Below, piece after piece: positions 5,911 through 41,113 of a DNA stretch of 64,000 nt. The DNA is from Wenyingzhuangia heitensis (lineage in GTDB: Bacteria > Bacteroidota > Bacteroidia > Flavobacteriales > Flavobacteriaceae), in the NCBI RefSeq assembly GCF_011762155.1, contig NZ_JAASQL010000001.1:992001-1056000 (forward strand), read 5' to 3'. Numbering within the stretch: the stretch's first letter is position 1; each line of letters begins with the position of its first letter. The translations under genes were made by a program, and so were the position numbers. The notes under the pieces are model-generated. The model was not told the DNA's origin. It ran no database searches and was given only the letters and a program-made list of their open reading frames with translations.

Positions 5911-5968
5911 TTTATATCTGTTTTCAACAAAAGTAAAATGAATGTATTTCTAGTTTTAGGACATTTGT

Positions 5969-24375: not shown

Positions 24376-24449
24376 GGTCTCATAGCTCAGCTGGTTAGAG
24401 CACCTGACTCATAATCAGGTGGTCCTAGGTTCGAGTCCTAGTGGGACCA
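24376..24449 (+). tRNA. tRNA with CAU anticodon (Met, or Ile2 if lysidine-modified)
   Basis: A complete 74-nt cloverleaf. The acceptor stem GGTCTCA pairs with TGGGACC, followed by discriminator A. The D-arm contains AGCTCAGCTGGTTAGAGC. The anticodon stem CCTGA/TCAGG carries the loop CTCATAA, with anticodon CAT. The T stem is CTAGG/CCTAG. CCA is not encoded. Elongator methionine and AUA-reading isoleucine tRNAs share this loop, and I cannot separate them by eye. Its 3' half is the integration site of the mobile element. Confidence 0.93.
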
Positions 24450-24461
24450 CTACTTAAAGCC
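24404..24461. repeat. Left attachment repeat (attL), within tRNA 3' half
   Basis: A 58-nt stretch starting CTGACTCATAATCAGG, repeated at 41056-41113 with six differences. The first 16 and last 21 positions are identical. It includes the end of the tRNA gene and 12 bases beyond. Confidence 0.88.
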
Positions 24462-24492
24462 AAGCCTTTACAGAAATGTAAAGGCTTTTTTG
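24462..24492 (+). terminator. Terminator following the tRNA
   Basis: AAGCCTTTACA (24462-24472), loop GAAA, TGTAAAGGCTT (24477-24487), then a T-run. It begins immediately after the attachment repeat, so it is part of the element. Confidence 0.85.
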
Positions 24493-24613
24493 TTTTCATC
24501 AGTACAACATATGTACAACAATTTGTCTACTTTACAAAGATAACAAACTTTTCATATTATTTCATTTAGCTATATTTTTTAATATTTTTATCATAAAATC
24601 TAATACTACTATT

Positions 24614-25438
24614 ATGGTAAATGCAATAGATCAATCTTGTTTTTTTATAGATCGACAAATGGAAATTTTAGGGAATATAACTTTATCTAAAAAAGCTTCG
24701 TATATCCTAGCACCAATGCTCCCTATTAGTTCATTTGTAATTTTCTCGTATTTATTTATTGTTACCAGTTGGCTTTTTGTGTTTTTTATGATTGCTTCTT
24801 TATTTGTGGCTTATAGGTTAACTGTAGCTTCTATAAACCTATTAAGTGGTCAAAATACATTTGTAGTATCTAATACTCTTCATATTCTGAGACGGTCTAT
24901 AAGAAGATGTAATGTAGATGTTGATAAAGAGGCTCATGCTTTTTTTAAATCGAGAAAATTTTTAGAAATAAGATTACAGGATGTTAAGACGTCAAAAAAA
25001 GCAGAAAGCACTTTCAAAATTAAGTCATTTAGTAAAGCAAAGTTGAATTTGATAGAGAATAGCTATAGTTTTTTGACTGATTTATATTTAGCGGAAGAAA
25101 TAATTAGTCCTGAGAGTACATTACAGGATTTTATAAATGTAATAAGGCAAGCATCATCAAAAGATAAAAAAACGAAAGGGTCAATACTAAAGCTGAATCT
25201 ACAATCAGATCAATGTTATGTGTTTTTAGAAAACATGTTTATTCCATTGGTAAATAAGATTACAGGAGTAAAAGTTACACCAAAATGGATATGTCATTTG
25301 TTTTACTATCATAAAAGTAATAAATATAAACCCTTGAATTATGACTCAATTACGAAATCAGATCGAAAAAAAAGTACTAATATCCAAAAAGCTAAATACA
25401 ACAATGTATTAGATCTTATAAATAAGTCAGTTTTGTGA
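24614..25438 (+). CDS. Hypothetical membrane protein of the mobile element
   Basis: A 274-residue protein I do not recognise. Two adjacent hydrophobic stretches (residues ~30-55 and ~57-80) predict a membrane hairpin. The rest is a charged, lysine-rich, probably cytoplasmic domain. It is the first gene inside the left end of the element and lies about 110 bases before the excisionase-like gene, separated by a perfect palindrome. Its place suggests an element-maintenance or regulatory role, but nothing in the sequence proves it. Confidence 0.5.
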   Translation: MVNAIDQSCFFIDRQMEILGNITLSKKASYILAPMLPISSFVIFSYLFIVTSWLFVFFMIASLFVAYRLTVASINLLSGQNTFVVSNTLHILRRSIRRCNVDVDKEAHAFFKSRKFLEIRLQDVKTSKKAESTFKIKSFSKAKLNLIENSYSFLTDLYLAEEIISPESTLQDFINVIRQASSKDKKTKGSILKLNLQSDQCYVFLENMFIPLVNKITGVKVTPKWICHLFYYHKSNKYKPLNYDSITKSDRKKSTNIQKAKYNNVLDLINKSVL

Positions 25439-25467
25439 AATTATTATAATAGTGTGTTAAATAAATG

Positions 25468-25481
25468 TCGGTTGACCGACA
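25468..25481. promoter_or_regulatory. Perfect palindrome, candidate operator
   Basis: GTCGGTTGACCGAC is a perfect 14-base palindrome in the gap before the HTH gene at 25547. It is GC-rich in otherwise AT-rich DNA, which suits a regulator site. Confidence 0.45.
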
Positions 25482-25546
25482 AACCTCCGTTTCATCTACC
25501 TGCATTCTATTAGTTTAGCCTCATAATTTTAAAAATAATAATTATT

Positions 25547-25834
25547 ATGACACCGCTAAAACTTATGCAAGAAATTAAAGAAATTAAAGTGATGATTAAT
25601 AAAGGGAGTCACTTTCAAAAAGAAATTTTCACTAAAAAAAATCTAATGGATTACACTTCTTTCTCAGAAAGTACAATCCACAAGCTTAGCGCTAAAAAAT
25701 TAATACCCCATTATAAACCCACTAATGGTGCTTTATTCTTTGATAGACTAGAAATAGTTGAATGGATTAGACAGCATAAAGTTTATTCTGACGAGGAAGT
25801 CTTATCTAGATTTTCAGATCAGTTAAAAAAATAA
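25547..25834 (+). CDS. Excisionase-like helix-turn-helix protein
   Basis: A 95-residue DNA-binding protein of the HTH_17/MerR-like type common in Bacteroidota mobile elements. The segment FTKKNLMDYTSFSESTIHKLSAKKLIPHYKPTNGALFFDRLEIVEWI has the winged-helix layout, ending in the FDRLEIVEWI motif typical of excisionase-like proteins. It may direct excision with the integrase or regulate the replication genes that follow. A strong hairpin lies just after the stop. Confidence 0.8.
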   Translation: MTPLKLMQEIKEIKVMINKGSHFQKEIFTKKNLMDYTSFSESTIHKLSAKKLIPHYKPTNGALFFDRLEIVEWIRQHKVYSDEEVLSRFSDQLKK

Positions 25835-25835
25835 A

Positions 25836-25862
25836 GCGTTCAAAAACCCACTTTTTGAACGC
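25836..25862 (+). terminator. Hairpin after the HTH gene
   Basis: GCGTTCAAAAA and TTTTTGAACGC form a perfect 11-bp stem with a five-base loop. The downstream T-run is interrupted, so it may attenuate rather than fully stop transcription. Confidence 0.65.
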
Positions 25863-25933
25863 CTTAATATTTTTTATGTAACTCTAACTGAGTGTATGCA
25901 AATATATGCATTATACTCATTCAACAATTTTTT

Positions 25934-27112
25934 ATGGAAAAAAGAAATGCGTATGATGTATCATCACGTAAAGATTCTGTGTATGATAAAATTCACGAAG
26001 AAATAACTAAGTATTTTAATGTTAAATTTAATGAAATAGCACTTGAGTATGAAATCTTTGATAAAAGCTCAGGTGATAAGGTTGAGTTTAATGAGTCCTC
26101 TATATTGATACATCTTCATAGAGAAAAAATAAATGTAAGTCCTCACGTATTTAAAACATACTTAAAATCACATTTTGTTAAACGTATTAACCCTTTAATA
26201 GAATATTTTGAAAGCTTACCATCATGGGATAGTGAGGATTATATTAAAAAATATGCAAGCTATATAAACACTGATGATAACGAATTGTTTTATTATCATC
26301 TTCTTAAATGGGCTATCCGTGCAGTAAAAACTGTGTTTATTGATGAAGCCATCAATAAACATGTACTGGTGCTAGAGGGAGGTCAGAGCTTTGGAAAGTC
26401 GTATTATTTAAATTATTTATGTCCACCTAGGCTTTTTAAGTATTTATATACAAATATTGGTGTAGCAAAAGATGATCGTATAAAATTAGCCAAGGCTTTT
26501 ATCATAAATATAGAAGAGCTGGATATAATGGGCAAATATGACATTAATTCGATTAAAGCATTTATAAGTCAAGTTTCAATAAATGAACGTCTACCCTATG
26601 GCGATAAATCAACTTTGTTATACAGAATTTGCTCTTTTTTAGCTTCAACAAATAGAGCTGAATTTTTATGTGATGACTCTGGATCTGTTAGATGGATAAT
26701 TTTTAGTGTACTTGAAAAAATAGATTTTTCATACAGTAAAGAGTTTAATATCGATGATTTTTGGTCGCAAGCATACCATATTTATAAAAACGAGAAAGAT
26801 TTTAAATCCGATTTGACATCTAAAGAGATACAGATTAACGAATCTAGGAATGAACGTTTTACTATACAGACGATAGAGCATGAATATATATTAAAATATT
26901 ATTCAGTTAGTAAAGATCTTATAGATTTTAGAACGCCTACTGAGATTGTAACTGAGCTACAAGTTATGGGGCAAAAATTGAATGTGCAAAAAATAGGATC
27001 AGCTTTAAAAAAATATGGATTTGATCGAGTAAAGCATTCAAAACGACAAGTCTATGGCTATTTGGCTAAGACTAAATTTAAAGAAACTCCTTGGGGTTTT
27101 ACTGATGTTTAA
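25934..27112 (+). CDS. VirE/VapE-type P-loop ATPase (replication protein)
   Basis: A 392-residue protein of the virulence-associated E family, a superfamily-3-like helicase domain used by phage-like and mobilizable elements. Walker A is in LVLEGGQSFGKSYYLNYL (roughly residues 135-152), a Walker B-like segment in IINIEELD, and a sensor region in FLASTNRAEFL followed by GSVRWIIF. The ATG at 25934 is preferred over a codon at 25892, whose added residues look non-coding. It precedes an iteron-like region and a primase, so it likely unwinds the element's origin. Confidence 0.82.
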   Translation: MEKRNAYDVSSRKDSVYDKIHEEITKYFNVKFNEIALEYEIFDKSSGDKVEFNESSILIHLHREKINVSPHVFKTYLKSHFVKRINPLIEYFESLPSWDSEDYIKKYASYINTDDNELFYYHLLKWAIRAVKTVFIDEAINKHVLVLEGGQSFGKSYYLNYLCPPRLFKYLYTNIGVAKDDRIKLAKAFIINIEELDIMGKYDINSIKAFISQVSINERLPYGDKSTLLYRICSFLASTNRAEFLCDDSGSVRWIIFSVLEKIDFSYSKEFNIDDFWSQAYHIYKNEKDFKSDLTSKEIQINESRNERFTIQTIEHEYILKYYSVSKDLIDFRTPTEIVTELQVMGQKLNVQKIGSALKKYGFDRVKHSKRQVYGYLAKTKFKETPWGFTDV

Positions 27113-27128
27113 TAAAATATAAATGTAC

Positions 27129-27308
27129 TTACCTAGTTACCTAATGTACTATAAGTTTTTGAATTTCAGCTAGTTGTTTAGGTAGGTAACTGTTAAAAAC
27201 TATTAATTTACTTACCTAAGTAGGTAACATAGGTAACTATATAAATCAATCCACCTATGTCTTAATGTGTTAATAATTAGTTTGTAAACAGTTTAAGGTA
27301 ACTAGGTA
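27129..27308. repeat. Iteron-like cluster, candidate replication origin
   Basis: The gene-free gap between the ATPase and the primase holds six exact copies of TTACCTA or its complement TAGGTAA (starting at 27129, 27137, 27183, 27212, 27221 and 27230). Further degenerate copies lie near 27179, 27253, 27295 and 27303. Clustering in both orientations between two replication genes suits an origin or operator array. Confidence 0.6.
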
Positions 27309-27327
27309 GGCTTAAAATGAAATTAGA

Positions 27328-28176
27328 GTGAACGATATAGCAAAATTGAGAAATATTCCAATATTTCATGTTTTAAAAAGATTAAATATTGAAGCCAATG
27401 AAAAGAAAAAAGAACAATTTTGGTTTAAAGCTCCTTGGAGAAATGAACGTACAGCTTCTGTGAAGTGTGAATTTAATTTGTTTTTTGATTTTGGTGAAGA
27501 GTATAAGGGAAACACTATAGATTTTGTAATGAAGTATTTTTCTATAGATTTTATAAAAGCTGTCAAATGGTTACGGAATGAGGATTTTGTTTTTTCTTTT
27601 GACCCGCCAAAACAGAAATCTATTTCAGAGGTAAATAAAACAAAATCTTATTGTATCGATCGAGTCCAACCCTTACAAAATAAAATATTATTAGATTATT
27701 TAAACACTAGGAAATTGAATATTGAAGTTTGTAAAAGGTATCTCGTTGAAGTGTATTACAGAGTGAATGAAAAAAAATATTTTGGCGTAGGTTTTAAGAC
27801 AAATAAAGATTCCTATGAAATCCGTAATAAGTATGCAAAATTAGCACTAGGAAAGAAATGGTTTACTTGGATTAATAATGGACATAAGTCAGTTATTGTT
27901 TTAGAGTCTTGGTCGGATCTAATTTCGCTATTGACGTTATATCCTAAAAGTGATAGTTCGAAAGATTTTATTGTTTTAAATTCTTTGTCAATGCTTTCAA
28001 AAATTGATAAAGTAATAAAGAATTATTCACAAGTTTTTTTGGCTTTTGATAATGATGTTGCGGGTTCTAAAGGATCAGAGAAGTGTTTACAGAAATATAA
28101 GAATAGTAAAGATATTAGATACCTGTATTCAGAGTCAAAAGACTTGAATGATCATTTAATTTCTCAAAGAAAATGA
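27328..28176 (+). CDS. TOPRIM/zinc-finger-like primase
   Basis: A 282-residue DnaG-like primase. The N-terminus has a CHC2-type layout (FWFKAPWRNERTASVKCEFNLFFDFGEEYKGNTIDFV) with most zinc ligands lost. The second half is a TOPRIM domain: the glutamate strand VIVLESWSD and the DxD motif in LAFDNDVAGSKG. It starts with GTG, with no in-frame ATG nearby. It probably primes the element's single-strand or origin replication with the ATPase upstream. Confidence 0.82.
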   Translation: MNDIAKLRNIPIFHVLKRLNIEANEKKKEQFWFKAPWRNERTASVKCEFNLFFDFGEEYKGNTIDFVMKYFSIDFIKAVKWLRNEDFVFSFDPPKQKSISEVNKTKSYCIDRVQPLQNKILLDYLNTRKLNIEVCKRYLVEVYYRVNEKKYFGVGFKTNKDSYEIRNKYAKLALGKKWFTWINNGHKSVIVLESWSDLISLLTLYPKSDSSKDFIVLNSLSMLSKIDKVIKNYSQVFLAFDNDVAGSKGSEKCLQKYKNSKDIRYLYSESKDLNDHLISQRK

Positions 28177-28268
28177 TTGAAGTCGATAAATTTATAATTG
28201 CTAAAAATGCTAAAGCTTAAAATGTATTAGAAGCAATATAACTCAATGAATTTATGCGATGTTTATTT

Positions 28269-28337
28269 AGCAAGCGGTGTATTTTGTGGGTACACTTTTA
28301 AACTACGTTAAAATGTACCCACAAAATACAGCTTGCT
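28269..28337. other. Long hairpin upstream of mob genes, candidate oriT
   Basis: AGCAAGC (28269-28275) plus TGTATTTTGTGGGTACA (28278-28294) pair exactly with TGTACCCACAAAATACA (28314-28330) plus GCTTGCT (28331-28337), leaving only a GG bulge. The loop side adds TTTTAA/TTAAAA. The hairpin lies 63 bases before the MobC gene, where relaxase nick regions are usual. A strong attenuator is the alternative. Confidence 0.6.
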
Positions 28338-28399
28338 CTACGAGGTTGATTTTTTTAACGCTATCGCTAAAAATCCTAGATATTATTAAAAAATAAATA

Positions 28400-28705
28400 A
28401 TGCAAAAGAATAAAAAGAAAGATGAATTCTTAAAGTTTAGAATTACTGAAAAAGAGAAAAAAATAATACAAGAAAGATCAAGAAAGTATGGTAAAAATGT
28501 TAGTGATTTTTCCAGATTTATGCTGGTCAACGGAGAGGTGATTTGTATCACTTTAGAAGATAGAAGAATACTAGCTGGGTTAGCCAACAATGTCAATCAG
28601 CTTGTAAAATTGTTTCATCAAACAAAAAGTGAACCTAGCACCCTTGTTCAAGAATTACAAGCAACATTAAAACACTTAAAAAATGCCTATAGGAGAAGCA
28701 CATAA
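28400..28705 (+). CDS. mobC: MobC-like relaxosome accessory protein
   Basis: A 101-residue protein with a ribbon-helix-helix-like N-terminus (FLKFRITEKEKKIIQERSRKYG) and the MobC signature LAGLANNVNQLVKLF near residue 70. It helps the relaxase open oriT. Its last 23 bases overlap the relaxase gene, so the two are coupled. Confidence 0.85.
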   Translation: MQKNKKKDEFLKFRITEKEKKIIQERSRKYGKNVSDFSRFMLVNGEVICITLEDRRILAGLANNVNQLVKLFHQTKSEPSTLVQELQATLKHLKNAYRRST

Positions 28706-30191
28706 AAGTGGCAGTAGTTTTACAGGATTAGCTGAATATATTTTAGCTCAAGGAATTTACAAGTATCAAAATAACGAAAAGAAACCTGAAATAATTTTTA
28801 GAAACCATGTGTATTCTTCAAATTATTTAGAGTTAGGTAGTGAATTTAGAGATTTAGCTAAAGAGAATTCAAGAGTAACCAAACCTGTCATGCATTTGAC
28901 CGTTAATTTTAAAAACTCAGATAATATTTCAAATGATAATCAAAAAAAGTTTGTTCAAAAAATTATATATGAAATGGGAGTTCGACAAGACAATCACCAG
29001 TTTTTGGTTGTAAAACATAATGATAAACACCCTCATTATCACATTGAAATAAATAGAGTTGGATTTGATGGAATTACATTATCTGATAGTAATTCAAAAT
29101 TGCGTATTGGAACTGCATGTGATAAGGTTGAAAAGGAGATGGGACTTGATAATTACCTTCATAAAACGAGAGCTTTTGTTTACGATGAAAAGACTAAAAC
29201 TTATGTGAAAAATCCAAATCGTAGTAAAGGTCAAGAAGTAGCTATTATAAAGACAACTAGAAATAGACAAGTTGGCATTCAAGAGAAAAAGGATTTTATC
29301 CAGATTCAAACTTTAAAAGCTCTAGATAATATTAAGGTGAATTCTTTAGATTTATTAGAGGAAGAGTTAAAAAAGAGAAATATTACTTTTCAATATTCAA
29401 TCAATAAAAAAGATCAGGTTGCTGTTTCATTTCAATATAAAGGTTTAGCAGTAAAAGGGAGTAAAATCAGTTTAAAAGGAAGCCTTATAAAAAAACAATT
29501 GTTAGCTAATCAAAAGACGAATCATCAATTAAAAGAGAAAAAAGAACATGTTAATATTCTTAAAGAGATATATCCTAACTTGGTTAAAAGTGTAGAACAA
29601 ATAGTACAAGAGTACAATTCAGGTAAAATTCCAAATATTAACTCTCTTTTTAAAAAAAACGGAATCATATTTAACAGCAAAGGTGATATTGAATATAAGA
29701 GTTTGACTTTAAGTGCTGTAATGATAAAGCAGTTTGAAAAGGATTTTAATTTGAAACTTAAAAGAGCGCAGAAAGTATATGAAACCAAATTTAAAGAATA
29801 CCAAAACTTGCAAAAGATGGAGGTTAAAAAAAGTTTTTTAGGCATTTTAAATTCGAAACAAAAACAATTTAATAAAGAGTTAAAAAACAAAAAGGATCAA
29901 ACTAAAGAGCCATCATTAGAAGTAGGGATTAAAATCAATAATTTCATAAAACTTATTGATGAAGGTTTTAAAAACACCTATGAAAAAGTGTCTGCTGAAA
30001 AAGTTGTTAGATATGTTATGTATTCATTAGATGGGCATATCAAGTTAAAGATGGCGGAGAATTTAAAATTAGAAAAAAAGAATGCTTTAGCTATTGAGAA
30101 AAAAGAACAGCATAAAAATACAAGTATAATACGTTCAAAGTCTAAAAAAGATGATTTAGAGCCTAGTACAAGAAAAGGGCTGAGTAGATAG
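28683..30191 (+). CDS. Relaxase / mobilization nuclease (MobA/VirD2 family)
   Basis: A 502-residue relaxase that would nick oriT and pilot the strand during mobilization. The N-terminal relaxase domain holds the three-histidine metal motif in VKHNDKHPHYHIEINRVG at residues ~110-127. The candidate catalytic tyrosine lies among the N-terminal tyrosines. The C-terminal half is a lysine-rich coiled region. It overlaps mobC and is followed by a gene-free gap before the cargo. Confidence 0.9.
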   Translation: MPIGEAHKSGSSFTGLAEYILAQGIYKYQNNEKKPEIIFRNHVYSSNYLELGSEFRDLAKENSRVTKPVMHLTVNFKNSDNISNDNQKKFVQKIIYEMGVRQDNHQFLVVKHNDKHPHYHIEINRVGFDGITLSDSNSKLRIGTACDKVEKEMGLDNYLHKTRAFVYDEKTKTYVKNPNRSKGQEVAIIKTTRNRQVGIQEKKDFIQIQTLKALDNIKVNSLDLLEEELKKRNITFQYSINKKDQVAVSFQYKGLAVKGSKISLKGSLIKKQLLANQKTNHQLKEKKEHVNILKEIYPNLVKSVEQIVQEYNSGKIPNINSLFKKNGIIFNSKGDIEYKSLTLSAVMIKQFEKDFNLKLKRAQKVYETKFKEYQNLQKMEVKKSFLGILNSKQKQFNKELKNKKDQTKEPSLEVGIKINNFIKLIDEGFKNTYEKVSAEKVVRYVMYSLDGHIKLKMAENLKLEKKNALAIEKKEQHKNTSIIRSKSKKDDLEPSTRKGLSR

Positions 30192-30370
30192 TTTTAAATG
30201 AATACCGTGATAACCTTTTGTTAATTTTAGGTTTAGATATTTTACTTGACTTAAAATGTAATATTTTTAGCTATTGAAAAGGGCTTGTTTAAATAGGAAA
30301 ATTCCAATGTTAATAAGTTTAAAATAACACTATTAATTTTAAAGATGTGAATTTGTAAGTTTATATAAAA

Positions 30371-30559
30371 ATGTTAGATAATATGAAAGTTGATTATAAA
30401 TGGTTAATAGGAGCGGTACTGATTCCAATAATAATTTTTGTTATTAATTATTTTAAGAAGCAAAACAAAGAGAAAACAACATTTAAGAATAGTAAAAATT
30501 TTAACACAGGGAAAATTAAAACGACCAAAGGAAATGTAAGGATAGGTGACGATGGTTAA
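30371..30559 (+). CDS. Small membrane protein sharing a motif with the next gene
   Basis: A 62-residue protein with one membrane helix (WLIGAVLIPIIIFVINYF, residues ~11-28), a lysine-rich linker and a C-terminal motif SKNFNTGKIKTTKGNVRIGD. Almost the same pattern (KNFNTGKI....G...IGD) opens the next protein, with whose gene it overlaps by 8 bases (ATGGTTAA). I infer a membrane anchor that interacts with the large partner through this motif. No known family is recognised. The first of two close ATGs is used; the second is four codons later. Confidence 0.6.
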   Translation: MLDNMKVDYKWLIGAVLIPIIIFVINYFKKQNKEKTTFKNSKNFNTGKIKTTKGNVRIGDDG

Positions 30560-33500
30560 GAACTTTAACACAGGTAAAATATTTAGTCTTTTAGGTGATA
30601 TTCATATTGGAGATAACTCAAAGAATCTTATCACTCAAAGTTTACAAAAACAGATTAAAACTATTGAAGATTTATTAAATCAATATAAGGTTAAAACCTC
30701 ATTAGAATTGTTAAATGATCTTGAAAAATCTACAAAAAGTATTGCTGAAAGTCCTGAAAAGAATAGTATTTTAAGTAAAGTATACTACTTAAAAGGTTTT
30801 TGTAAACATTCTATTCATCAATATCAGTTTACAGAAGGTTGTAAGGATTTTATTAAAGCTTATAATTATGATAATAAAGAATTATGTGTAAAAGAAAATG
30901 CATCAATACACTATTATAATTTAGAGAATGAAGAAAAATCCATAGATATAAGTAATGATATTTTAAAAATAGACGAATATAATTTAACAGCTAATTTTGT
31001 TAAATTTATTTATAGTGATGATAAACAAAAATACTTGAAATTATTACCACCTGTTGTATTTAATGATTATGTCTATCAAGTTTCAGTAGTTTATTATTTA
31101 ATAATTAAGAGGTTAGTTTGTTTTAAGTCAGATATTTATAAGTATTTTCCAGGTTTTAAGATATCTACTAAACAATTAAAAGGTATTAATTTTTATAATA
31201 AGAGTGTATGGTTTATTAATACAGAAATCACATTAAACTTTTTTTTTAAAGAGAACCCAATTAAACTAAAGGATTATAATTTCCATAATAAAGATAATTA
31301 CGAGTTTAAAGAACTTACATCTCAGTTAGATGAGATTCATAATGAGTTTGATAAAACAGAATTATCTGACGAAATTTTAAATTTTAAATTCTTCAAATAT
31401 TATTTGAATTCAGATATTAACTATAATAAGTTCAATTCAGTTTATAAAAAACTTAGAGATATTGATTTTATCTACACTAAATTCTTCTGTTCATATTTGA
31501 CAACTATAAATAAGCCAGAAAAAATTAGAAGTGTTTTATTAAAATACAATAGAGAGAAGAACTATGAGTTTTATTTATTTGAAATTTATATGTTTTACAT
31601 AAATAATTTTGATGATTTTTTAGATAAAATATTATTACAAAAATTGTTTGATTCTTTTGAAATAGTTGATAGTGAGAAAGGTATAGACGTTGTTTCATAT
31701 ATCTTTCCAGTTATAAATCATGTATTTAAGGAAAGGTACGATGATTATAAAATCATTTTTTTAGGTAAAGTATTCAATGATAAACATGAAAAAAAAATTT
31801 TAGAAGTTTTTTTAGAAGTTTTTTTTGAAAATAAATCTATTCAACATGTAGATGATGTTACTGATCTTTTAAAGGATGATATGCTTAAAAAGATTTATAA
31901 GTTAAAATTATTAGATGGTTTAAGACATTCTGGTTTTTTAGAAATTGTATATGAAGAGTTAAAACAAGAAGTATACTTAAAAGAAATATCACCTGAATTA
32001 GAATTATATATTATAACTATAAATGATTTAATTAATGAAAACGAAGATTTAAGTAAAGACTACGTATCTGAGTTACTACCATTATTGAGTAAATGGAGAA
32101 AATCATACACATACTTAAATAGAACAATATTTAACATTGAATTTGAATTATTAAATTCAAAGAATGATTGGGATGAATTATTAGATGTTACTGAGTCATT
32201 GTATAAAATATTACCCAAAGACGTTAATGTATTATCCAACTACTTATTAGCATTGGACAAAACAAATGATTTAACTACTTTAAAAAAAGTATTGAGTAAG
32301 TTTTCATTTAAAATTAACAATGAAGCTATTGGGCTTAATATTATTATTTTATGCTTAAAGCGTAAGTTTTTTATAGACAAAGCACTAAGGTTAGTATACG
32401 TGCTAGCTAGTAATGAAGATAATATTGATGCAAGGAAGTTTTATTTTCATTCGTCAAATTTATTTCCAGAAGGTTTTTTTAAAAATTATGAAAAAGTGTT
32501 TAAAGGGACGTTTATTCTATATGAATATGATGACAGAGATTTACACCTATTAAAAATTAATAATTACAATAGAAAAATAATTGGAAAAAAGATAGGAGAT
32601 TCAATAAAAATGGACTCTTATACTGATGCAAAAAAAGAAATTAAGATAAAAAAAATAATTAATTCTGAATTAGCTTTATTTCATGAAATTCAATTAGAAA
32701 GTTCAAAGCCTTATAATAATTTAGGCATGGAGTCTATAGAAATAGAAAATAATGATATTGTTCAAACGTTAATTGATAAATTTGGAAAAGTTGGTTCTAA
32801 GAGACAAGAAGAAATAGAAGGTATACTAGAAAAATATAAAAAATGGAATGTTGGTTTATCTGAAATATCCGTGTCTGTTTTTAATAACGATATAGTTGAA
32901 GCATACGAAGATTTAAAAAAAGATGAAGAACTAGGGATGTTTGTTTTTCCAGATACATTATATCCAAAGATAAATGTAGATCAATCATATAAATATATTC
33001 TTGATTTTAGTTCTGTTTTGCTTTTTGAAGATTTGTATGAAAATTATGGAGTTGTATATAAAGAAACTTTTTTAGTCTCTTATTATGTAATTGAATGTTT
33101 AAAAGAATTACTATATGATATTGAAACCAAACCTAAATCTTTTTTAATAGCTAACATAACAGAAAAAGGTATAAGAAATACACAATTACCTGAAGATTAT
33201 TATGAAAACAAGTTGATTAAAATCAAGGGAATACTGTCTTGGATTGATACGAATTGTACGATTGATTATGTACAAGAAAAATTAAATATTAAAAAAGATG
33301 TTTCTAAAGGACTAGCCATAATTTATAAGCTCTTCTTTGATAATATTTTTATGAGTATAAGAGATAAACACATCGTGGTTTCAAGTGATTCTTTTTACTT
33401 TAGAAACAATGTATCTGTTAATATAATTAATCCATTATCCTTTATTAAAAACAATAATTATTATGATGATTTTGACCATTACTTAATAAAGAACAATCAT

Positions 33501-33857
33501 ATTGGTGTCGTTATTAGTAAAAAATGTTTTTTAAATGAATTAAAAAATAGCATTGAGGGTAATCAGAATTATTTAAACAATTGTTTGAAAAACATAAGTT
33601 TCTTTTATGGTTTAGAAATTATAGATAACCTAATTGAGTATTTTAAATTAATCATGGAATCTAAAAACTTAGATACTGAAGAGAAGAAAGGTTACTGTTT
33701 TAAAATTTTAAAACACTTATATTCTGAAGTTAATATAGAAACTAGCGAAAAAATAAACTTTTTTTTATTAATGAAACTAAAAGAAGAAGGTTTTAAAGAA
33801 ATTGACTTTTTTAAGACGATAACTGCAAATTTATCAAAATGGTATTCTGTACAATAA
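30552..33857 (+). CDS. Large helical-repeat protein with possible C-terminal PIN-like domain
   Basis: A protein of about 1101 residues (ATG at 30552; a GTG two codons earlier is possible). It starts with the shared NFNTGKI....GDIHIGD motif. Residues ~30-650 are rich in TPR-like helix pairs. After about residue 750 comes a segment with ILDFSSVLLFEDLYENYG and, later, DKHIVVSSDSFYF, which could be the acidic strands of a PIN-like nuclease. I do not recognise the family, and the PIN call is an inference. Co-encoding with a small membrane protein beside a reverse-transcriptase defence gene suggests an antiphage or abortive-infection role. Confidence 0.55.
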   Translation: MVKNFNTGKIFSLLGDIHIGDNSKNLITQSLQKQIKTIEDLLNQYKVKTSLELLNDLEKSTKSIAESPEKNSILSKVYYLKGFCKHSIHQYQFTEGCKDFIKAYNYDNKELCVKENASIHYYNLENEEKSIDISNDILKIDEYNLTANFVKFIYSDDKQKYLKLLPPVVFNDYVYQVSVVYYLIIKRLVCFKSDIYKYFPGFKISTKQLKGINFYNKSVWFINTEITLNFFFKENPIKLKDYNFHNKDNYEFKELTSQLDEIHNEFDKTELSDEILNFKFFKYYLNSDINYNKFNSVYKKLRDIDFIYTKFFCSYLTTINKPEKIRSVLLKYNREKNYEFYLFEIYMFYINNFDDFLDKILLQKLFDSFEIVDSEKGIDVVSYIFPVINHVFKERYDDYKIIFLGKVFNDKHEKKILEVFLEVFFENKSIQHVDDVTDLLKDDMLKKIYKLKLLDGLRHSGFLEIVYEELKQEVYLKEISPELELYIITINDLINENEDLSKDYVSELLPLLSKWRKSYTYLNRTIFNIEFELLNSKNDWDELLDVTESLYKILPKDVNVLSNYLLALDKTNDLTTLKKVLSKFSFKINNEAIGLNIIILCLKRKFFIDKALRLVYVLASNEDNIDARKFYFHSSNLFPEGFFKNYEKVFKGTFILYEYDDRDLHLLKINNYNRKIIGKKIGDSIKMDSYTDAKKEIKIKKIINSELALFHEIQLESSKPYNNLGMESIEIENNDIVQTLIDKFGKVGSKRQEEIEGILEKYKKWNVGLSEISVSVFNNDIVEAYEDLKKDEELGMFVFPDTLYPKINVDQSYKYILDFSSVLLFEDLYENYGVVYKETFLVSYYVIECLKELLYDIETKPKSFLIANITEKGIRNTQLPEDYYENKLIKIKGILSWIDTNCTIDYVQEKLNIKKDVSKGLAIIYKLFFDNIFMSIRDKHIVVSSDSFYFRNNVSVNIINPLSFIKNNNYYDDFDHYLIKNNHIGVVISKKCFLNELKNSIEGNQNYLNNCLKNISFFYGLEIIDNLIEYFKLIMESKNLDTEEKKGYCFKILKHLYSEVNIETSEKINFFLLMKLKEEGFKEIDFFKTITANLSKWYSVQ

Positions 33858-33874
33858 ATGTACTCATTACTATT

Positions 33875-33925
33875 TTTATAAGCCCATATTAAATTATTAT
33901 TCATAATTTAATATGGGCTTATAAA
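33875..33925. terminator. 23-bp perfect hairpin between the two cargo modules
   Basis: TTTATAAGCCCATATTAAATTAT (arm 33875-33897) is exactly complementary to 33903-33925 around a five-base loop. It lies 18 bases after the large gene and likely ends its transcript, although the T-run after the stem is poor. Confidence 0.6.
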
Positions 33926-34049
33926 CTAGCTACAACAAATATACAGGCACAAGAGTGTGTGATGATATATAATAAATAAAAACTATAATATGATACAATA
34001 CATTTAGTACTCCTTTGTATATTTAGCTATAAAACTGCTAAAAATTAAA

Positions 34050-37000
34050 ATGAAAAAATATACATTAAAAGAAATTGAAAAAGTATTTAGAAAATTAAAA
34101 AGCTATTCATATTACGATAATTTCTTTCTTTATTTAAGAGAAAGACTAGCTTCTTTTGAAACTAATGAAAATTTTGAATCAAGATTAAAAGACTTAGTTG
34201 ATTTTTTAAATTTAAATAATGAAATTGAAAAATCAGACTATTTTAATGGGCTTCTAAGTAATATTGATTTTGTAGTTATTCCCAAAAAGTTTAAGCATGA
34301 TAAAATTGAAGACCCAGAAGATTTTATAATTACAAATAAATTTTCTAGTAACCATTACGAGGTTGAATCTTGTAATTATCTAATTGATGCACCAATAGAG
34401 ATACATCTTATTTCGTTATTATGGATACTAAATGAAGGCGTTAACTTAAATGATACATATAAAAAAAACAATTACGCATATGCTTTAGAATTAGATGATT
34501 CTAAAAGCAAAGTAGTAAATGGTCTACGTTTATTTAAACCTTATTTTGAACAATATCAGAAGTGGAGAGATAGTGCTATCAATAAAGCCCAAAATTTTAT
34601 AGAAGAAGGAACAGATATACTTATGATTAGTGTTGATGTGAAGCAATATTTTTACAACATTAATTTAACTGAAAAGTTACCAAATTTTAAAAAAGATCTG
34701 AGAAAAGGTTCTACTAAAAAGGGGTTACCCATGACAAATATGCTTTTAAAAATCCATGAAGCTTATCAATTAAAGTTAAAAGGTAATATACCTAGTAATA
34801 TTAATTATGATAATTGTATTCCAATTGGATTATTGTCGTCAGGTATAATAGGTAATTGGTTTTTAAAAGATTTAGATCTTAAAATAACAGATAATCTATC
34901 TCCAGTATATTATGGTAGATATGTTGATGATATTATTATTGTTTTATCAAATGCATCAGTTAATGAAAATGAACCAAAACCAAAATCAGCAATCTTAAAA
35001 AAGTTTTTTGTAGATCGAGATATACTTAAAAACGAAGAAGAAAATATTAATGTTTATAGCTATTCTGAAGATGAAAATATAAAACTACAAAAAGATAAAA
35101 CTACTGTGTATGCATTTGATAGTAAAGAATCACATGCAGTATTAGAAAAGTTTAAAAAAAATATAGAAAAAAATAGTAGTGCTTTCTGGTTTTTGCCAGA
35201 TGAAGAAAATGCAGATGAAGATTTTGATGATAATGTATATGAATTAACCTATTCAGATACCACTAATAAATTGAGAAGTATTAGTGAAATTAAACAAAGT
35301 AAATATGGTGCCTCAATTTATTTAGCAAAAAAAATAAAATTAGCATTATTATCCGATGATAAGAAAGATTTAAAAACAACCAAACAAATATTGACCTTTT
35401 TTAAGGGTCGTATAAATTTAGAATTTAATTCAATTTGGGAAAAGGCACTTACTTATTTTATAATTCAAAACAATACCAAAGCTTTTATAGCTTTTATTAA
35501 TGAGACTCATAATTCAATAAAGAAAATAAAAGTAACTGAATTAGATAAATCTTGTAGTATAGATAAGCTACAACAAGGCCAATATAGTTATTTACTCAAC
35601 TCAATAGCATTATCTTTATGTATAAACCCAAAGTTTTTAAATAAAGACATAGAATCACATATTGAACGTTTAGAAAATAAAATACTTACAATAGAAAGTT
35701 TAAATCAAATAATACTAAATTATAAAAAAACAAATCTCTTTAGACATTATTTTGTGATTCAACCTTTATTAAATTTTTCAATTTTTAATTTAGAAACTAA
35801 TTTATTAAAATTTGACATTCAAAACTATAAAGATATTAAGCTATTAAATGAAAAATTTAAATACGCACCTAGATATATCTATTTACATGAAATAGTACAT
35901 TATTTATCTTTTCAAAAATTATATAATTCTTCACAAAATATTAATGAAGTAAATAATACTGTATTAATAGAAGATTTGTTTTTAAAAGAAGTGAATTATA
36001 AAGATGAGAACGAAAACACTATAAACTACTCATCCAATAAAGTTTTAGATGATGCGTTGAAACTATATTATAAATTCAACTATGAATTAAGGAATTCGGG
36101 TGTTTTTAATCAATTGGAATTTGATAGTATTAAATCTGCATATTTTAAAAATACGCGAAAAAAAAATCATGCTGACACAATCAAATATGATGAAGTTTCA
36201 TGTAGTAATAAACAACAAAAAGATACTGTTAGAATAGCTATCGCTAATATGATAGTTAAAGAAGAAAATATAAAAGCATCTTTATTTTATAAACCTATTT
36301 TATCAACGGAAAGGAGAAAAAATTTTATTGATATTTTAAATCAAGCAGAAAATTGTAAGACTGAATTTTTAGTGCTTCCTGAGGTTAGTATTCCGTATCA
36401 ATGGTTACCCTTAATAGCAGATGAATCAAGAAGAAAACAAAGAGTAATTATTGGAGGTTTAGAGCATATTAGGATCAATAATGTATGTTATAATATTATG
36501 GTTACTTGTTTGCCTGTTGAAAGAAATGGAATCAAAGATGTAATTACTGTTTTTCGTTTAAAGAATCACTATTCGCCTCATGAATCTAAGTCAATTAGAA
36601 ATCAAAATAAAATTGTTCCAATTCCCTCTCCATACACGTATAATAAGTTTATATGGAAAAATATTCATTTTAGTGTGTACAACTGTTATGAATTAGCCGA
36701 TATAACTCATCGTTCTGTTTTTCGTTCAGAAGTAGATTTATTATTTGCTTCTGAATATAATAGAGATATTAATTATTTCTCGAATATTACGGAAACGATT
36801 AGTCGTGATGTACACTGTTATTTTGTACAGGTCAATAGTTCTGACTTTGGAGATTCTAGAATTACCAAACCTTCAAGAACTGAAATTAAAGATATTATTA
36901 GATTAAAAGGAGGTATTAATTCTGTTGTATTATATGATGAAATCAATTTAACAGAATTAAGAGAGTTTCAGAAAACACATATAGATGGTCAAAAAACTAT

Positions 37001-37070
37001 TAAATTCAAAAATACACCTCCAAATTATAAACATAGTAAAGCAGAAGATAGAATTAATCAAAAATTTTAA
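34050..37070 (+). CDS. Reverse transcriptase-nitrilase fusion (DRT1/UG-type antiphage protein)
   Basis: A 1006-residue fusion. The N-terminal half is a reverse transcriptase: motif A aspartate D196 in SVDVKQYFYNI and the catalytic YVDD at 291-294. The C-terminal part is a carbon-nitrogen hydrolase with its triad in place: E778 (LPEVSIP), K838 (RLKNHYSPHES) and C879 (YNCYELAD). RT plus nitrilase is the architecture of defence-associated RT type 1 (UG1) and the related UG5/UG6 groups. I cannot place it among them without a tree. It likely acts in phage defence. It has its own leader after a long hairpin, and a structured RNA follows about 230 bases downstream. Confidence 0.88.
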   Translation: MKKYTLKEIEKVFRKLKSYSYYDNFFLYLRERLASFETNENFESRLKDLVDFLNLNNEIEKSDYFNGLLSNIDFVVIPKKFKHDKIEDPEDFIITNKFSSNHYEVESCNYLIDAPIEIHLISLLWILNEGVNLNDTYKKNNYAYALELDDSKSKVVNGLRLFKPYFEQYQKWRDSAINKAQNFIEEGTDILMISVDVKQYFYNINLTEKLPNFKKDLRKGSTKKGLPMTNMLLKIHEAYQLKLKGNIPSNINYDNCIPIGLLSSGIIGNWFLKDLDLKITDNLSPVYYGRYVDDIIIVLSNASVNENEPKPKSAILKKFFVDRDILKNEEENINVYSYSEDENIKLQKDKTTVYAFDSKESHAVLEKFKKNIEKNSSAFWFLPDEENADEDFDDNVYELTYSDTTNKLRSISEIKQSKYGASIYLAKKIKLALLSDDKKDLKTTKQILTFFKGRINLEFNSIWEKALTYFIIQNNTKAFIAFINETHNSIKKIKVTELDKSCSIDKLQQGQYSYLLNSIALSLCINPKFLNKDIESHIERLENKILTIESLNQIILNYKKTNLFRHYFVIQPLLNFSIFNLETNLLKFDIQNYKDIKLLNEKFKYAPRYIYLHEIVHYLSFQKLYNSSQNINEVNNTVLIEDLFLKEVNYKDENENTINYSSNKVLDDALKLYYKFNYELRNSGVFNQLEFDSIKSAYFKNTRKKNHADTIKYDEVSCSNKQQKDTVRIAIANMIVKEENIKASLFYKPILSTERRKNFIDILNQAENCKTEFLVLPEVSIPYQWLPLIADESRRKQRVIIGGLEHIRINNVCYNIMVTCLPVERNGIKDVITVFRLKNHYSPHESKSIRNQNKIVPIPSPYTYNKFIWKNIHFSVYNCYELADITHRSVFRSEVDLLFASEYNRDINYFSNITETISRDVHCYFVQVNSSDFGDSRITKPSRTEIKDIIRLKGGINSVVLYDEINLTELREFQKTHIDGQKTIKFKNTPPNYKHSKAEDRINQKF

Positions 37071-37300
37071 TCACAGGTAAAGTAAAGCTTCTATTTTAAT
37101 AGTCAACAAGCAACTCAGTCAAATTTATAAGATACTTTTCAAACTTTAAAAAAAAACTAACAAAAAATTAAGTTGTCAAAACTTCATCTCAATAAATTAT
37201 TTAGGATTTTAAAAATAATTTTTAACACTTAGTTTTTTGTTCGTAATTTTACAAATAGAAAATATTAAAATACAAAGCGTATAGCTTTTGATTTGGTTTT
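37071..37300. other. Gene-free stretch after the RT-nitrilase gene
   Basis: No ORF, terminator or repeat is evident in this very AT-rich segment. It ends where the structured RNA element begins. It may hold the promoter of that RNA, with candidate TTTTG/TTTG words but no clean -33/-7 pair. Confidence 0.4.
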
Positions 37301-37402
37301 AGAAACCCGCCAGGTTTATAGTCCACCACAATCGAAGTTAAGACGCCCACGTTTTGCGTGGGCTGTTCTTATTTTGGTGGATGAGCTTCTGGCGGGGCTT
37401 CT
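37301..37402 (+). ncRNA. Strongly structured RNA element (nested four-helix hairpin)
   Basis: Nested perfect helices: CCCGCCAG (37306-37313) with CTGGCGGG (37389-37396); TCCACCA (37322-37328) with TGGTGGA (37375-37381); TAAGA (37339-37343) with TCTTA (37367-37371); and GCCCACG (37345-37351) with CGTGGGC (37357-37363). Outer AGAA/TTCT may close it. GC content is far above the surroundings. It is either a stand-alone RNA, perhaps partnering the RT upstream, or a leader of the operon starting at 37447. Strand is uncertain because the stems read both ways. Confidence 0.7.
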
Positions 37403-37446
37403 AAGACTAATAAGAGACAGTTCCACGCTTTTTTTATACGTGAAAA

Positions 37447-37743
37447 ATGAAAAAGAACCGCCAGTTTAATCTCAAAGAAATCCTAACTACTCAGTTTGGA
37501 TTTACATCAGTAGACATAGATAGATATCAAACTATTTTAAATGATCAATCTAAGATTGAAACATTAAAAAATTCTGTTTTATATGTGCTTTCCAAACCTC
37601 AATTTTTTAAAACACAAGAACATAAGCGTAATACACTACTAAAAAAATGTAGAGAATTGGCTTATGAAGTTAATATGCATAATACAACTTCTATTAGTGA
37701 TTTTATTCAAAAGAATTTAAGAAATAATAACCAAAATAAATAA
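37447..37743 (+). CDS. Hypothetical small protein, first gene of a four-gene cargo operon
   Basis: A 98-residue, lysine- and asparagine-rich soluble protein with no recognised domain. It begins 45 bases after the structured RNA and is two bases from the next gene. The composition is mostly helical. Co-transcription with two exported proteins and a phosphoesterase is likely from the spacing. Confidence 0.5.
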   Translation: MKKNRQFNLKEILTTQFGFTSVDIDRYQTILNDQSKIETLKNSVLYVLSKPQFFKTQEHKRNTLLKKCRELAYEVNMHNTTSISDFIQKNLRNNNQNK

Positions 37744-37745
37744 TT

Positions 37746-38228
37746 ATGAAAAAGAGAGTATTAAGTATGCTATTCATAGCGATGACTATGATAGCTTGTT
37801 CAAGTGATGATTCTTCAAATATTGAAAATGATGTAGGAAAAGAAATTGTTTTAAAATCTGAGAAAAATAATTTTGAGGTTATTTATACTCAAAAAGGAGA
37901 TTTAGATGAATCAATAATGATTTTTAGTATTTCAGGTGTAGATAAAGGTTTCATATCATCAAATGTAGTTGATAAATCTGATAATAAAAATTTAGGTAAT
38001 CCAGCTTTAATAAATATGCATGAAAGAGAAGAAGGATCTCATTCATATAGTTTAAAAGATAAAGTTGAGAGTATACTTGTTAATTATTCTGCATTAGTAA
38101 ATGATGACGCCAAAAAGGACTTAGAAATAAATGTAAAGGTTTTTAAGGATGGAAAAGAAGTTTTTAATCAAGATGAAAAAATAGAAATAGGAAAAACGAT
38201 AACTTCTAAATCTTACACAATAGAATAA
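37746..38228 (+). CDS. Hypothetical lipoprotein (mobile-element cargo)
   Basis: A 160-residue protein with a lipoprotein signal (lipobox MIAC near residue 18, then SSDDSSN, a usual flavobacterial surface-lipoprotein start). The rest has a beta-rich pattern with no known family. Its stop overlaps the next start (TAATG), so the two are translationally coupled and may form a pair at the envelope. Confidence 0.6.
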   Translation: MKKRVLSMLFIAMTMIACSSDDSSNIENDVGKEIVLKSEKNNFEVIYTQKGDLDESIMIFSISGVDKGFISSNVVDKSDNKNLGNPALINMHEREEGSHSYSLKDKVESILVNYSALVNDDAKKDLEINVKVFKDGKEVFNQDEKIEIGKTITSKSYTIE

Positions 38229-38779
38229 TGAAAAAAATAATTTTAACCACAGCATTAGTCTTTATTTCAATAGTAGGTTTTTCTCAGGAAATAACAGCTA
38301 AAAACAATACTATTGATGTTATAACGTCAATTAAAAACACTAACAATAGCTTAGTTTTAAACGGAGAGTATAAATTAACCATTGGAAATGATATTCTTAT
38401 ATATTTACCATCGAGTGAAGATTTTTTATTTGTAAAAAAGAAGAAATCTTTATTGAGTGCAAAATTAGCAGGTAAACTTGCAGGAATAGTTGAATCTGGA
38501 GCAATGGTAGCTTTAGGAACAAATACTACTAGTATAGAAGGATTAACCAAAACAATTAAAGTAATTAATACAGCTCAAACAGTACAGTATGGTGCAGATG
38601 CATTAGAAAAAATTAATGCTTTAGATATTTCTAAAAAGGCTAAAAAAATAGCAGGTAGAAAAGCTGAAGTTTTAGGATGGGATGCAACCAATAATATAAT
38701 TGAAGTTAAGATTGGTATAAAGAAATATGAAGTACATTTACAAGAGGCTATTGTTACTAAAGAAATAAAATTGATATAA
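38228..38779 (+). CDS. Hypothetical exported protein (mobile-element cargo)
   Basis: A 183-residue protein with a signal peptide (MKKIILTTALVFISIVGFSQ). The centre contains a small, alanine/glycine-rich stretch (AKLAGKLAGIVESGAMVALG), which could be amphipathic or membrane-inserting. No known domain. It is coupled to the lipoprotein upstream and directly followed by the phosphoesterase. Confidence 0.55.
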   Translation: MKKIILTTALVFISIVGFSQEITAKNNTIDVITSIKNTNNSLVLNGEYKLTIGNDILIYLPSSEDFLFVKKKKSLLSAKLAGKLAGIVESGAMVALGTNTTSIEGLTKTIKVINTAQTVQYGADALEKINALDISKKAKKIAGRKAEVLGWDATNNIIEVKIGIKKYEVHLQEAIVTKEIKLI

Positions 38780-39406
38780 TTGAAGATAGTATTCATTTCA
38801 GATACACATGGTAGACACAATTATGTAAAACTACCTGAAGGTGATATTCTTATACATTCGGGAGATTTAACATCACGAGGTGATATTTTTGAGATAGCTC
38901 ATTTTATTTCTTGGTTAAACAAACTTACTTTTAAGCATATTATATTCATAGCAGGAAATCATGATTTCTATCTTGAGAAACACAGTATTGATGATTTTAA
39001 AGATTTCTTACCTAATAACGCTATTTATTTAAATGATTCAGGTTGTGAAATAGAGGGAGTAAAGTTTTGGGGTTCACCAATTCAACCTGAGTTTTTAAAC
39101 TGGGCTTTTAATAGAGAAAGAGGGGTTGATATAAAAAAGCATTGGGATTTAATTCCAAATGACACAGATGTACTAATTACTCATGGGTCTCCTTATGGTA
39201 TTTTAGACCAAACTGTAAGAGGTGACAAAATAGGTTGTGAAGATTTACTAAAAAAGGTTTTAGAAATTAGGCCTAAAATTCATGCTTTTGGACATATTCA
39301 TGAAGCTTACGGTATCAAAAATATTAATGAAACAACTTTTGTAAATGCTAGTTTACTGAATGAGAGGTATCGTTATACAAACGATCCTATTGTTTTAGAA
39401 GTTTGA
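38780..39406 (+). CDS. Calcineurin-like metallophosphoesterase
   Basis: A 208-residue metallophosphatase with the full metal-binding set: DTHG at the N-terminus, GDLTSRGD, GNHD, THGSPYG and GHIHEAYG. The family cleaves phosphomonoesters or diesters, often cyclic nucleotides. Substrate unknown. It starts with TTG immediately after the upstream stop (TAATTG), and no in-frame ATG is available nearby. As the last gene of the cargo operon it could supply the enzymatic activity of the group. Confidence 0.85.
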   Translation: MKIVFISDTHGRHNYVKLPEGDILIHSGDLTSRGDIFEIAHFISWLNKLTFKHIIFIAGNHDFYLEKHSIDDFKDFLPNNAIYLNDSGCEIEGVKFWGSPIQPEFLNWAFNRERGVDIKKHWDLIPNDTDVLITHGSPYGILDQTVRGDKIGCEDLLKKVLEIRPKIHAFGHIHEAYGIKNINETTFVNASLLNERYRYTNDPIVLEV

Positions 39407-39521
39407 TAAATTCTAAGTGTACAATATTTTACAATTGACTAAAAGTACAGTTGTGAAAAGAGTATTTGAAGAAGTATAAATAACTAAAGAAAGACATTAT
39501 CGCTTTAAGGGGGTAGGTTTT

Positions 39522-39557
39522 AAAAACTCAGAATTGATTTTCAATCCTGAGTTTTTT
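39522..39557. terminator. Bidirectional terminator between cargo operon and integrase
   Basis: AAAAACTCAGAATTGA (39522-39537) pairs with TCAATCCTGAGTTTTT (39541-39556) with one mismatch, ending in T-runs both ways. It lies between the convergent phosphoesterase and integrase genes. Confidence 0.82.
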
Positions 39558-39683
39558 CTATTTTATCAAACTTTCATCAACCATACATAAGTTTAATAAT
39601 ATCGTAGTAATGTTTGATGCGAATTTATATATTTTGCTTATGTATGGTTGACGAAAAACTAACTGTATATTCATTAATGTATG

Positions 39684-40910: not shown

Positions 40911-41055
40911 TGAAATATTTTAAAGTTTAACATGCGTACAACAAATGCAAACATTTAGTGAAACGTGATGAAACAAAAATATTTTTAAAAACCCCTAAGC
41001 ACTTGATTTTTAGTGGTTTTGAAGCTATATGCAATTAAATGCAAATATTGTTTAT

Positions 41056-41113
41056 CTGACTCATAATCAGGGGGTCCATGGTTCGAGCCCATGTGGGACC
41101 ACTACTTAAAGCC
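41056..41113. repeat. Right attachment repeat (attR), tRNA 3' fragment
   Basis: This copies the anticodon-loop to 3' end of the CAU tRNA, but with T stem CATGG/CCATG in place of CTAGG/CCTAG. The two changed base pairs are compensated. There is no 5' half, so it is not a functional tRNA gene. The rest of the 40911-41055 gap shows nothing clear. Confidence 0.88.

Follow-up and report, generated by a model that had tools for sequence, protein, structure and literature searches.

What links a protein of 62 amino acids with a single predicted membrane helix to the protein of 1101 amino acids encoded directly after it, when both carry nearly the same short motif? The question is raised by two overlapping genes in a stretch of 64,000 nucleotides from Wenyingzhuangia heitensis (contig NZ_JAASQL010000001.1, positions 992,001 to 1,056,000), hereafter called the window, the coordinates of which are used throughout. 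The small open reading frame (ORF) lies at 30371-30559 (+) and the large one runs from an ATG at 30552 to 33857 (+; 1103 amino acids with an alternative GTG at 30546), giving an overlap of 8 bases (30552-30559), as already noted in an earlier reading made from the letters alone (the sequence-only reading). With a probability of roughly two in three, the pair is in our view a sensor-effector module in which a short homotypic motif provides the wiring, as in the amyloid signalling known from bacteria, with a PIN protein as its sensor. The pairing of the motif between the small and the large protein is itself an observation and was confirmed.

The motif common to both proteins has 20 residues, 12 of them identical. 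The copy on the proposed effector side is KNFNTGKIKTTKGNVRIGDD (residues 42-61 of the small protein, 30494-30553, +) and that on the sensor side is KNFNTGKIFSLLGDIHIGDN (residues 3-22 of the large protein, 30558-30617, +), the large protein starting with MVKNFNTGKIFSLLGDIHIGDN. The BLOSUM62 local score of the two tails was 65, which was reached by none of 20,000 shuffles of both tails (mean 22, maximum 53). When the upstream C-terminus was compared with the downstream N-terminus in 1,226 adjacent same-strand ORF pairs, the best 12 rows, representing 10 distinct loci (two were fetched twice), were all motif pairs, and the next row (score 54, locus L048) was a different kind of resemblance. The sample consisted of the window and the collected loci longer than 8 kb, many of them chosen for family membership, so that the scan provides a background for spurious matches and not an unbiased survey. 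A hidden Markov model of the motif, built from six other loci with the window excluded, ranked the small protein first among the 420 window ORFs (E 1.8e-4) and the large protein second, the latter not being significant alone (full-sequence E 1, domain i-E 0.038). At 8 of the 12 identical residues the codons differ synonymously, which suggests constraint at the protein level and argues against a recent DNA copy; a recent duplication of the motif at the DNA level was thus unsupported. With a motif profile that included the window copies, the two places of the pair were recovered from the window's own genome at E 1.5e-10 and 2.6e-9. A weak third motif-like place in this genome (G000:C1:269485-269523, E 0.03, 13 positions, in a 244-amino-acid frame) is probably due to chance.

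The motif, or a diverged version of it, was found at the N-terminus of the large protein in eight loci besides the window: L039 (UBA3611), L040 (Altibacter sp. HG106), L041 and L042 (Aequorivita), L043 (Maribacter sp. PR1), L044 (Kaistella chaponensis), L049 (G937) and L062 (G1306). In all eight an upstream gene, coding for a product of 125-131 amino acids, carries the cognate motif at its C-terminus, either overlapping the large gene by 8 or 11 bases or lying 0-5 bases apart from it (using the inner ATG at 5989 for L043). The cognate motifs are, for example, KNVNTGDVDTGGGDFRIGDNY with SNINTGTVNTNGGSFQVGDSY in L039 and KNVVTGNISTGGNSIVGDGNTIN with ENVVNAPINTGGNSIVGNNNTIN in L062. At E up to 1 the motif profile missed the motif of L044, which is called from its pair score of 55; that of L062, a locus collected later, is called from a pair score of 81. 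None of the three outcomes that the sequence-only reading had named as speaking against it (a pair not conserved elsewhere, no nuclease fold, a chance motif) was found.

Thirteen relatives of the large protein have a longer N-terminus (L017, L018, L019, L020, L021, L027, L028, L046, L047, L048, L050, L051 and L063). No motif was detected in them by eye, nor by profile in twelve of them (L063 not included), and no upstream motif gene was seen beside them. At L021 (4879-8312) the relative is split over two ORFs, possibly as a decayed gene or by sequencing error. In a tree calculated without the motif columns, made before L062 was known and with L021 excluded because its gene is split over two frames, the window and seven motif-bearing proteins fell on one side of a branch (SH-aLRT 80), next to L017. 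Because the window protein sits on a long branch (1.94) and has an odd composition, the tree gives only moderate support for a single origin of the motif-bearing large proteins.

The large protein has few homologues. With E limited to 0.001 they were found in 5 of 395 genomes of the class and 10 of 397 genomes of the family, and by profile search in 6 of 395 genomes of the order; these counts include the window's own genome and come from overlapping draws, and they are lower bounds, since in most genomes scoring was restricted to no more than two candidates. Weak or partial matches in G707, G541, G315, G324 and G281 (L022-L026), G919, G983 and G835 (L035, L037, L038) and G1227 (L065) were not counted, and L015/L039, L016/L040 and L017/L045, each being one locus, were counted once each. 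The Pfam family PF20698 (PIN-TPR-GreABC) was matched in 10 of the 395 phylum genomes, above the cut-off in 7 of these, and below the cut-off in 1 of 14 control genomes. A scan of genome contigs gave 7 loci, three of which had already been collected. No relatives of the large protein were found in viral contigs or in phages, and the plasmid search gave two distant ones.

The large protein is a member of the TPR-GreA/B-C-PIN conflict family, described in 2021 (Kaur et al. 2021, PMC8195603), and not a new kind of protein; the sequence-only reading had considered a new antiphage module plausible. The PIN-like C-terminus proposed in that reading was borne out. PF20698 matched residues 862-949 (E 8.7e-4, 20 bits, curated cut-off 27.8), and the corresponding figure from the phylum genome scan (E 1.5e-4, 23.3 bits) was likewise below the cut-off. 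The AlphaFold2 model of residues 625-1101 had a mean pLDDT of 64.6, several blocks of the PIN region reaching 85-91. With this model Foldseek gave nothing at E up to 0.001. In VIA-align, where Z below 8 may reflect merely a common arrangement, the PIN region matched many VapC chains in a range of Z 7.8-9.0; among the best rows, model residues 187-346 matched PAE2754, which we take to be a PIN protein, at Z 9.0, and VapC chains at Z about 8 with a root-mean-square deviation (rmsd) of 3.4-4.0. Model residues 17-80 matched GreA at Z 8.6, also among the best rows, and a GreA/GreB protein at Z 7.8 (rmsd 1.7 over 59 residues). Trigger-factor chains also matched this region, at Z 6.5-7.3, and helical chains reached Z 8.4 for the C-terminal helices of the model. 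The acidic residues D818, E909, D930 and D946 are kept in 18, 17, 19 and 19 of 20 aligned proteins, respectively, and we read them as the putative catalytic residues of the PIN domain. Taken together, the VIA-align rows, the Pfam match and the conserved residues led us to assign a PIN nuclease domain to residues ~811-970 (32982-33461, +) and a domain like the C-terminal domain of GreA/GreB to residues ~641-704 (32472-32663, +). The latter had no Pfam match and is called by fold only. Pfam likewise gave no TPR family at E up to 1, the middle region being considered TPR-like only through family membership, and a sequence search against solved structures gave weak matches only, at E 0.4 or worse for the C-terminal part.

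Two features set the large protein apart from the family as described in the available text of Kaur et al. (2021). There, a GreA/B-C and PIN core, shared by the window protein, follows a variable N-terminus, at which the adaptor EAD10 or one of 13 effectors is fused; in the window protein the conserved region begins after only ~30 residues, the motif among them, and no fused effector or EAD10 is present. The family genes are there said to be mostly stand-alone, whereas in the window a partner gene overlaps from upstream. Action at the RNA polymerase plus an apoptotic arm is proposed, and the word "amyloid" occurs once in that text, within a reference.

The small protein consists of a hydrophobic stretch, a lysine-rich stretch and the motif tail, in this order. 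Its most hydrophobic 19 residues (7-25, 30389-30445, +) have a Kyte-Doolittle mean of 2.1, in agreement with the single membrane helix predicted in the sequence-only reading. Under the positive-inside rule, the lysine-rich flank of a membrane helix is cytoplasmic, and so the motif would lie on the cytoplasmic side. The small protein matched no Pfam or NCBIfam family above the cut-off and had no plasmid relative at E up to 10; a match to PDC-M43A of the library (E 0.0021) was taken as chance. A Bell domain, a small bundle of helices in which a hydrophobic helix precedes the motif, was not recognized in this protein, which has 62 residues, one helix and, outside the motif, no likeness to the effectors of the relatives.

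The 125-131-amino-acid partners in the other eight loci are presumably Bell-like, a resemblance drawn from descriptions of that domain. Their best hydrophobic stretches (seven measured) scored 1.15-1.5, versus 2.1 in the window. The model of the L043 effector is helical, with a mean pLDDT of 65.7 and below 50 in the motif tail, and a fold search against the PDB returned 44 rows, none at E up to 0.001 (best E 2.8). Sequence searches of effectors against solved structures gave weak matches only (E 0.058 or worse), and no effector relatives were found in viral contigs. The L039 effector had no plasmid relative at E up to 1 and in PHROGs matched only phrog_9598, of unknown function (E 0.0052). Matches of the L044 effector to Cas9b (E 0.0015) and of the L059 effector to MkoA (E 2.2e-4) were taken as chance. 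The idea that the N-terminal domains of the motif-less relatives correspond to a Bell-like effector, as in a Rosetta-stone fusion, was not supported, the profile-profile probabilities being 0.6 % with five relatives and 0.3 % with two. The L043 effector (5619-5996) has a non-significant match (E 0.71) to EAD10, the adaptor fused to this sensor family according to Kaur et al.

A seven-row effector profile matched 4 of the 397 family genomes. Two of these contain known loci, in which the profile, although built from effectors only, also matched the N-terminal motif of the sensor (E 8.2e-5 and 4.5e-4); the other two contributed further loci, L059 (E 5.8e-4, helical part only) and L058 (E 3.0e-5), with pair scores of 65 and 57, respectively. 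In L059 (6173-10037), from the same bacterial family, the Bell-like gene is followed by a gene for a probable ATPase (AAA_22 E 1.1e-4, below the cut-off) that starts with a matching motif, and then by one for a second AAA-like/TPR protein, an arrangement that appears similar to a Bell-NLR pair. In L058 (4890-7180) a gene with caspase and TPR-S domains (E 1e-17 and 1e-7), a Bell-like effector gene with two motif-like repeats and a gene for a 104-amino-acid membrane protein with an N-terminal motif stand in a row, and may form a three-gene amyloid-signalling cluster.

The closest precedent for this anatomy is provided by the bacterial amyloid-signalling pairs (BASS, Bell-NLR), reportedly defined by Dyrka et al. 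in 2020. In these, Bell proteins and NLRs are encoded in adjacent or overlapping genes (PMC7889193, PMC8086366, PMC9815663, PMC12261475), with the motif at the C-terminus of a small membrane-active protein and at the N-terminus of the sensor which triggers it (PMC7889193). The positions of the motif and the adjacent or overlapping genes are the same in the window and in all eight other loci, and for this reason amyloid signalling is favoured here. The sensor of BASS is an NLR, whereas that of the window is a TPR-GreA/B-C-PIN protein without an NTPase match, and an NLR-like sensor (NB-ARC or NACHT) is suggested only by the below-cut-off AAA_22 match in the distant L059. The effector of the window is a bare membrane helix and not a Bell protein; CHAT and TIR are also mentioned as effectors besides Bell (PMC7889193). 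The hosts named in the available text of PMC9815663 are multicellular Actinomycetes, Cyanobacteria and Archaea, whereas those found here are Bacteroidota. The same logic as is proposed for the window operates in the fungal pairs HET-S/NWD2 and HELLP/PNT1, in which the sensor acts through its N-terminal motif on the C-terminal motif of a death protein that is membrane-active and encoded by the adjoining gene (PMC7889193); these have an NLR sensor and a HeLo-type effector, and the likeness drawn here is one of logic. Among titles and abstract openings, no paper joining amyloid motifs with TPR-GreA/B-C-PIN proteins was found, nor was one found under the family names; Dyrka et al. (2020) lay outside this search and may hold priority.

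The pair is a new combination of two known parts, its minimal membrane partner having been seen once in the searches made. The motif most likely lets the large protein switch on the small one during infection, and we infer amyloid formation, membrane damage leading to killing, and phage defence as parts of this reading. Infection would activate the large protein, perhaps bound to RNA polymerase through GreA/B-C as Kaur et al. propose, and cause it to oligomerise, whereupon its N-terminal motifs would stack into a cross-beta seed. The seed would template the tails of the membrane protein, clustering the helices and permeabilising the inner membrane, and the cell would stop supporting the phage; the PIN domain could cut RNA as a first or parallel arm. 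If this is true, the 62-residue single-helix protein would be near the smallest amyloid-triggered killer conceivable, and amyloid signalling would extend, among sensors, from NLRs to a nuclease protein proposed to act at RNA polymerase and, among hosts, from multicellular bacteria to flavobacteria. A mostly stand-alone family would gain a partner gene, hinting at how members without a fused effector could act, and the 20-residue motif and 62-amino-acid partner make the idea easy to test. More tentatively, amyloid templating may serve bacterial immunity as a plug of general use that is not peculiar to NLRs, with a transcription-linked PIN sensor firing a 62-residue single-helix effector through a prion-like motif, and with related sensors changing between N-terminal domains fused to them and partners recruited by the motif.

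The tails were also compared for co-variation by permuting the partners, with L040, L041 and L042 dropped as near-copies of L039 and the similar L044 and L062 both kept. For six TPR-GreA/B-C-PIN loci the score sum of the true pairing was reached by 3 of 720 permutations, itself included, and with L058 and L059 added by 3 of 40,320; in an earlier run the figures were 2 of 120 for five loci and 2 of 5,040 for seven. The tails thus vary in concert, which counts in favour of the amyloid-signalling reading.

Several results weigh against the amyloid-signalling interpretation. The specificity of the tails is partial: the top score belongs to the cognate partner in 3 of 6 rows (5 of 8 once L058 and L059 are added), and the tails of the window and L043 scored 67 with each other's partner versus 65 and 61 with their own. 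Common descent of the neighbouring genes could also yield such co-variation. Pfam showed no NTPase family in the large protein at E up to 1, and the BASS receptors in the available text are NLRs. Outside the motif the small protein has no resemblance to the effectors of the relatives (scores 20-26), so it would be either a replacement for them or a minimal version; among the 397 genomes of the family, the window's own was not matched by the effector profile. The bare membrane-helix partner occurs in the window only, the other motif-bearing loci having the 125-131-amino-acid partner, and no second membrane-helix-only partner was found among the loci collected. The RHIM core of RIPK1/RIPK3, as we take it, resembles FQVGDSYN (L039) and LQIGDN (L043), yet in the 4 genomes searched, with E up to 10, Pfam RHIM (PF12721) had no match where the motif stands, and membership of the motif in RHIM was rejected. 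Its matches elsewhere were below the cut-off.

Other explanations of the shared motif were weighed against the same evidence. A chance or low-complexity likeness between two N/G/K-rich tails might be suspected in a stretch of ~22.5 % G+C, the tails being built from few kinds of residue, but the shuffled tails never reached the observed score and a cognate pair accompanies every other motif-bearing locus, which makes this explanation extremely improbable. The sequence-only reading had proposed that homotypic docking anchors the large protein at the membrane, the motifs pairing one-to-one to hold the PIN nuclease there and the small protein being an anchor rather than an effector. Docking as such is possible, and an anchor's job would suffice for a protein that has little beyond a helix and a tail; the closest precedent, however, is one in which the sensor triggers the membrane protein. 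In the eight other loci the partner, at 125-131 residues, is no simple anchor, and relatives of that partner adjoin a probable ATPase or a caspase gene and not a PIN protein, as fits an effector recruited by different sensors. We therefore regard static docking as unlikely.

Even less likely, to our judgement, is a guard or inhibitor role, in which the membrane protein restrains the PIN nuclease through the motif until infection releases it, in the manner of toxin-antitoxin systems. Toxin-antitoxin pairs commonly have a small gene that overlaps the beginning of a larger toxin gene, which is the layout seen here, and the best fold matches include VapC chains. The thirteen relatives with a longer N-terminus nevertheless have a similar PIN core with no motif gene seen upstream, indicating that such an inhibitor is not needed to restrain the nuclease.

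The pair is carried by a mobilisable element of ~16.7 kb (24404-41113) at tRNA-Met, bounded by a 58-nucleotide repeat. The left attachment site (24404-24461, +) comprises the 3' part of tRNA-Met (24376-24450) together with the 11 bases that follow, and the right one (41056-41113, +) is a 58-nucleotide near-copy of which the first 16 and last 21 nucleotides are exact. The element encodes a tyrosine integrase (39684-40910, -; PF00589 E 1.6e-12), a MobA/VirD2-type relaxase (28683-30191, +; PF03432 E 1.8e-24) and Toprim/primase-like and VapE-like genes. A defence gene for a UG5-nitrilase type reverse transcriptase (DRT) adjoins the pair (34050-37070, +; PADLOC RT_UG5-nitrilase E 1.9e-247), in line with the mobile setting beside a reverse-transcriptase defence gene described in the sequence-only reading. 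The pair and the DRT gene form the most AT-rich part of the element, at ~22.5-24.5 % G+C. A perfect 23-nucleotide inverted repeat with 5 nucleotides between its arms lies just 3' of the large gene (33875-33925, no strand); a simple terminator scan reported no terminator after this gene in spite of the repeat, and a simple promoter scan gave 40 sites against a shuffle mean of 34.4, i.e. no excess.

Flanking genes were scanned in five other loci, one to three genes in each. In L044 (425-5197) a UG10 DRT reverse transcriptase gene lies directly upstream of the pair, making it the second DRT gene found beside such a pair. L049 has type I restriction-modification genes and a match to PDC-M36A as neighbours; a tyrosine recombinase lies next to L039 and a transposase next to L042, and the two flanking genes scanned in L043 are metabolic and regulatory. 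The DRT genes beside the pairs of the window and L044 and the restriction-modification genes beside L049 speak for the amyloid-signalling reading. Upstream of the pair in G1306, a predicted ATPase and a smaller protein (L066, 1707-5529) resemble another defence system by eye.

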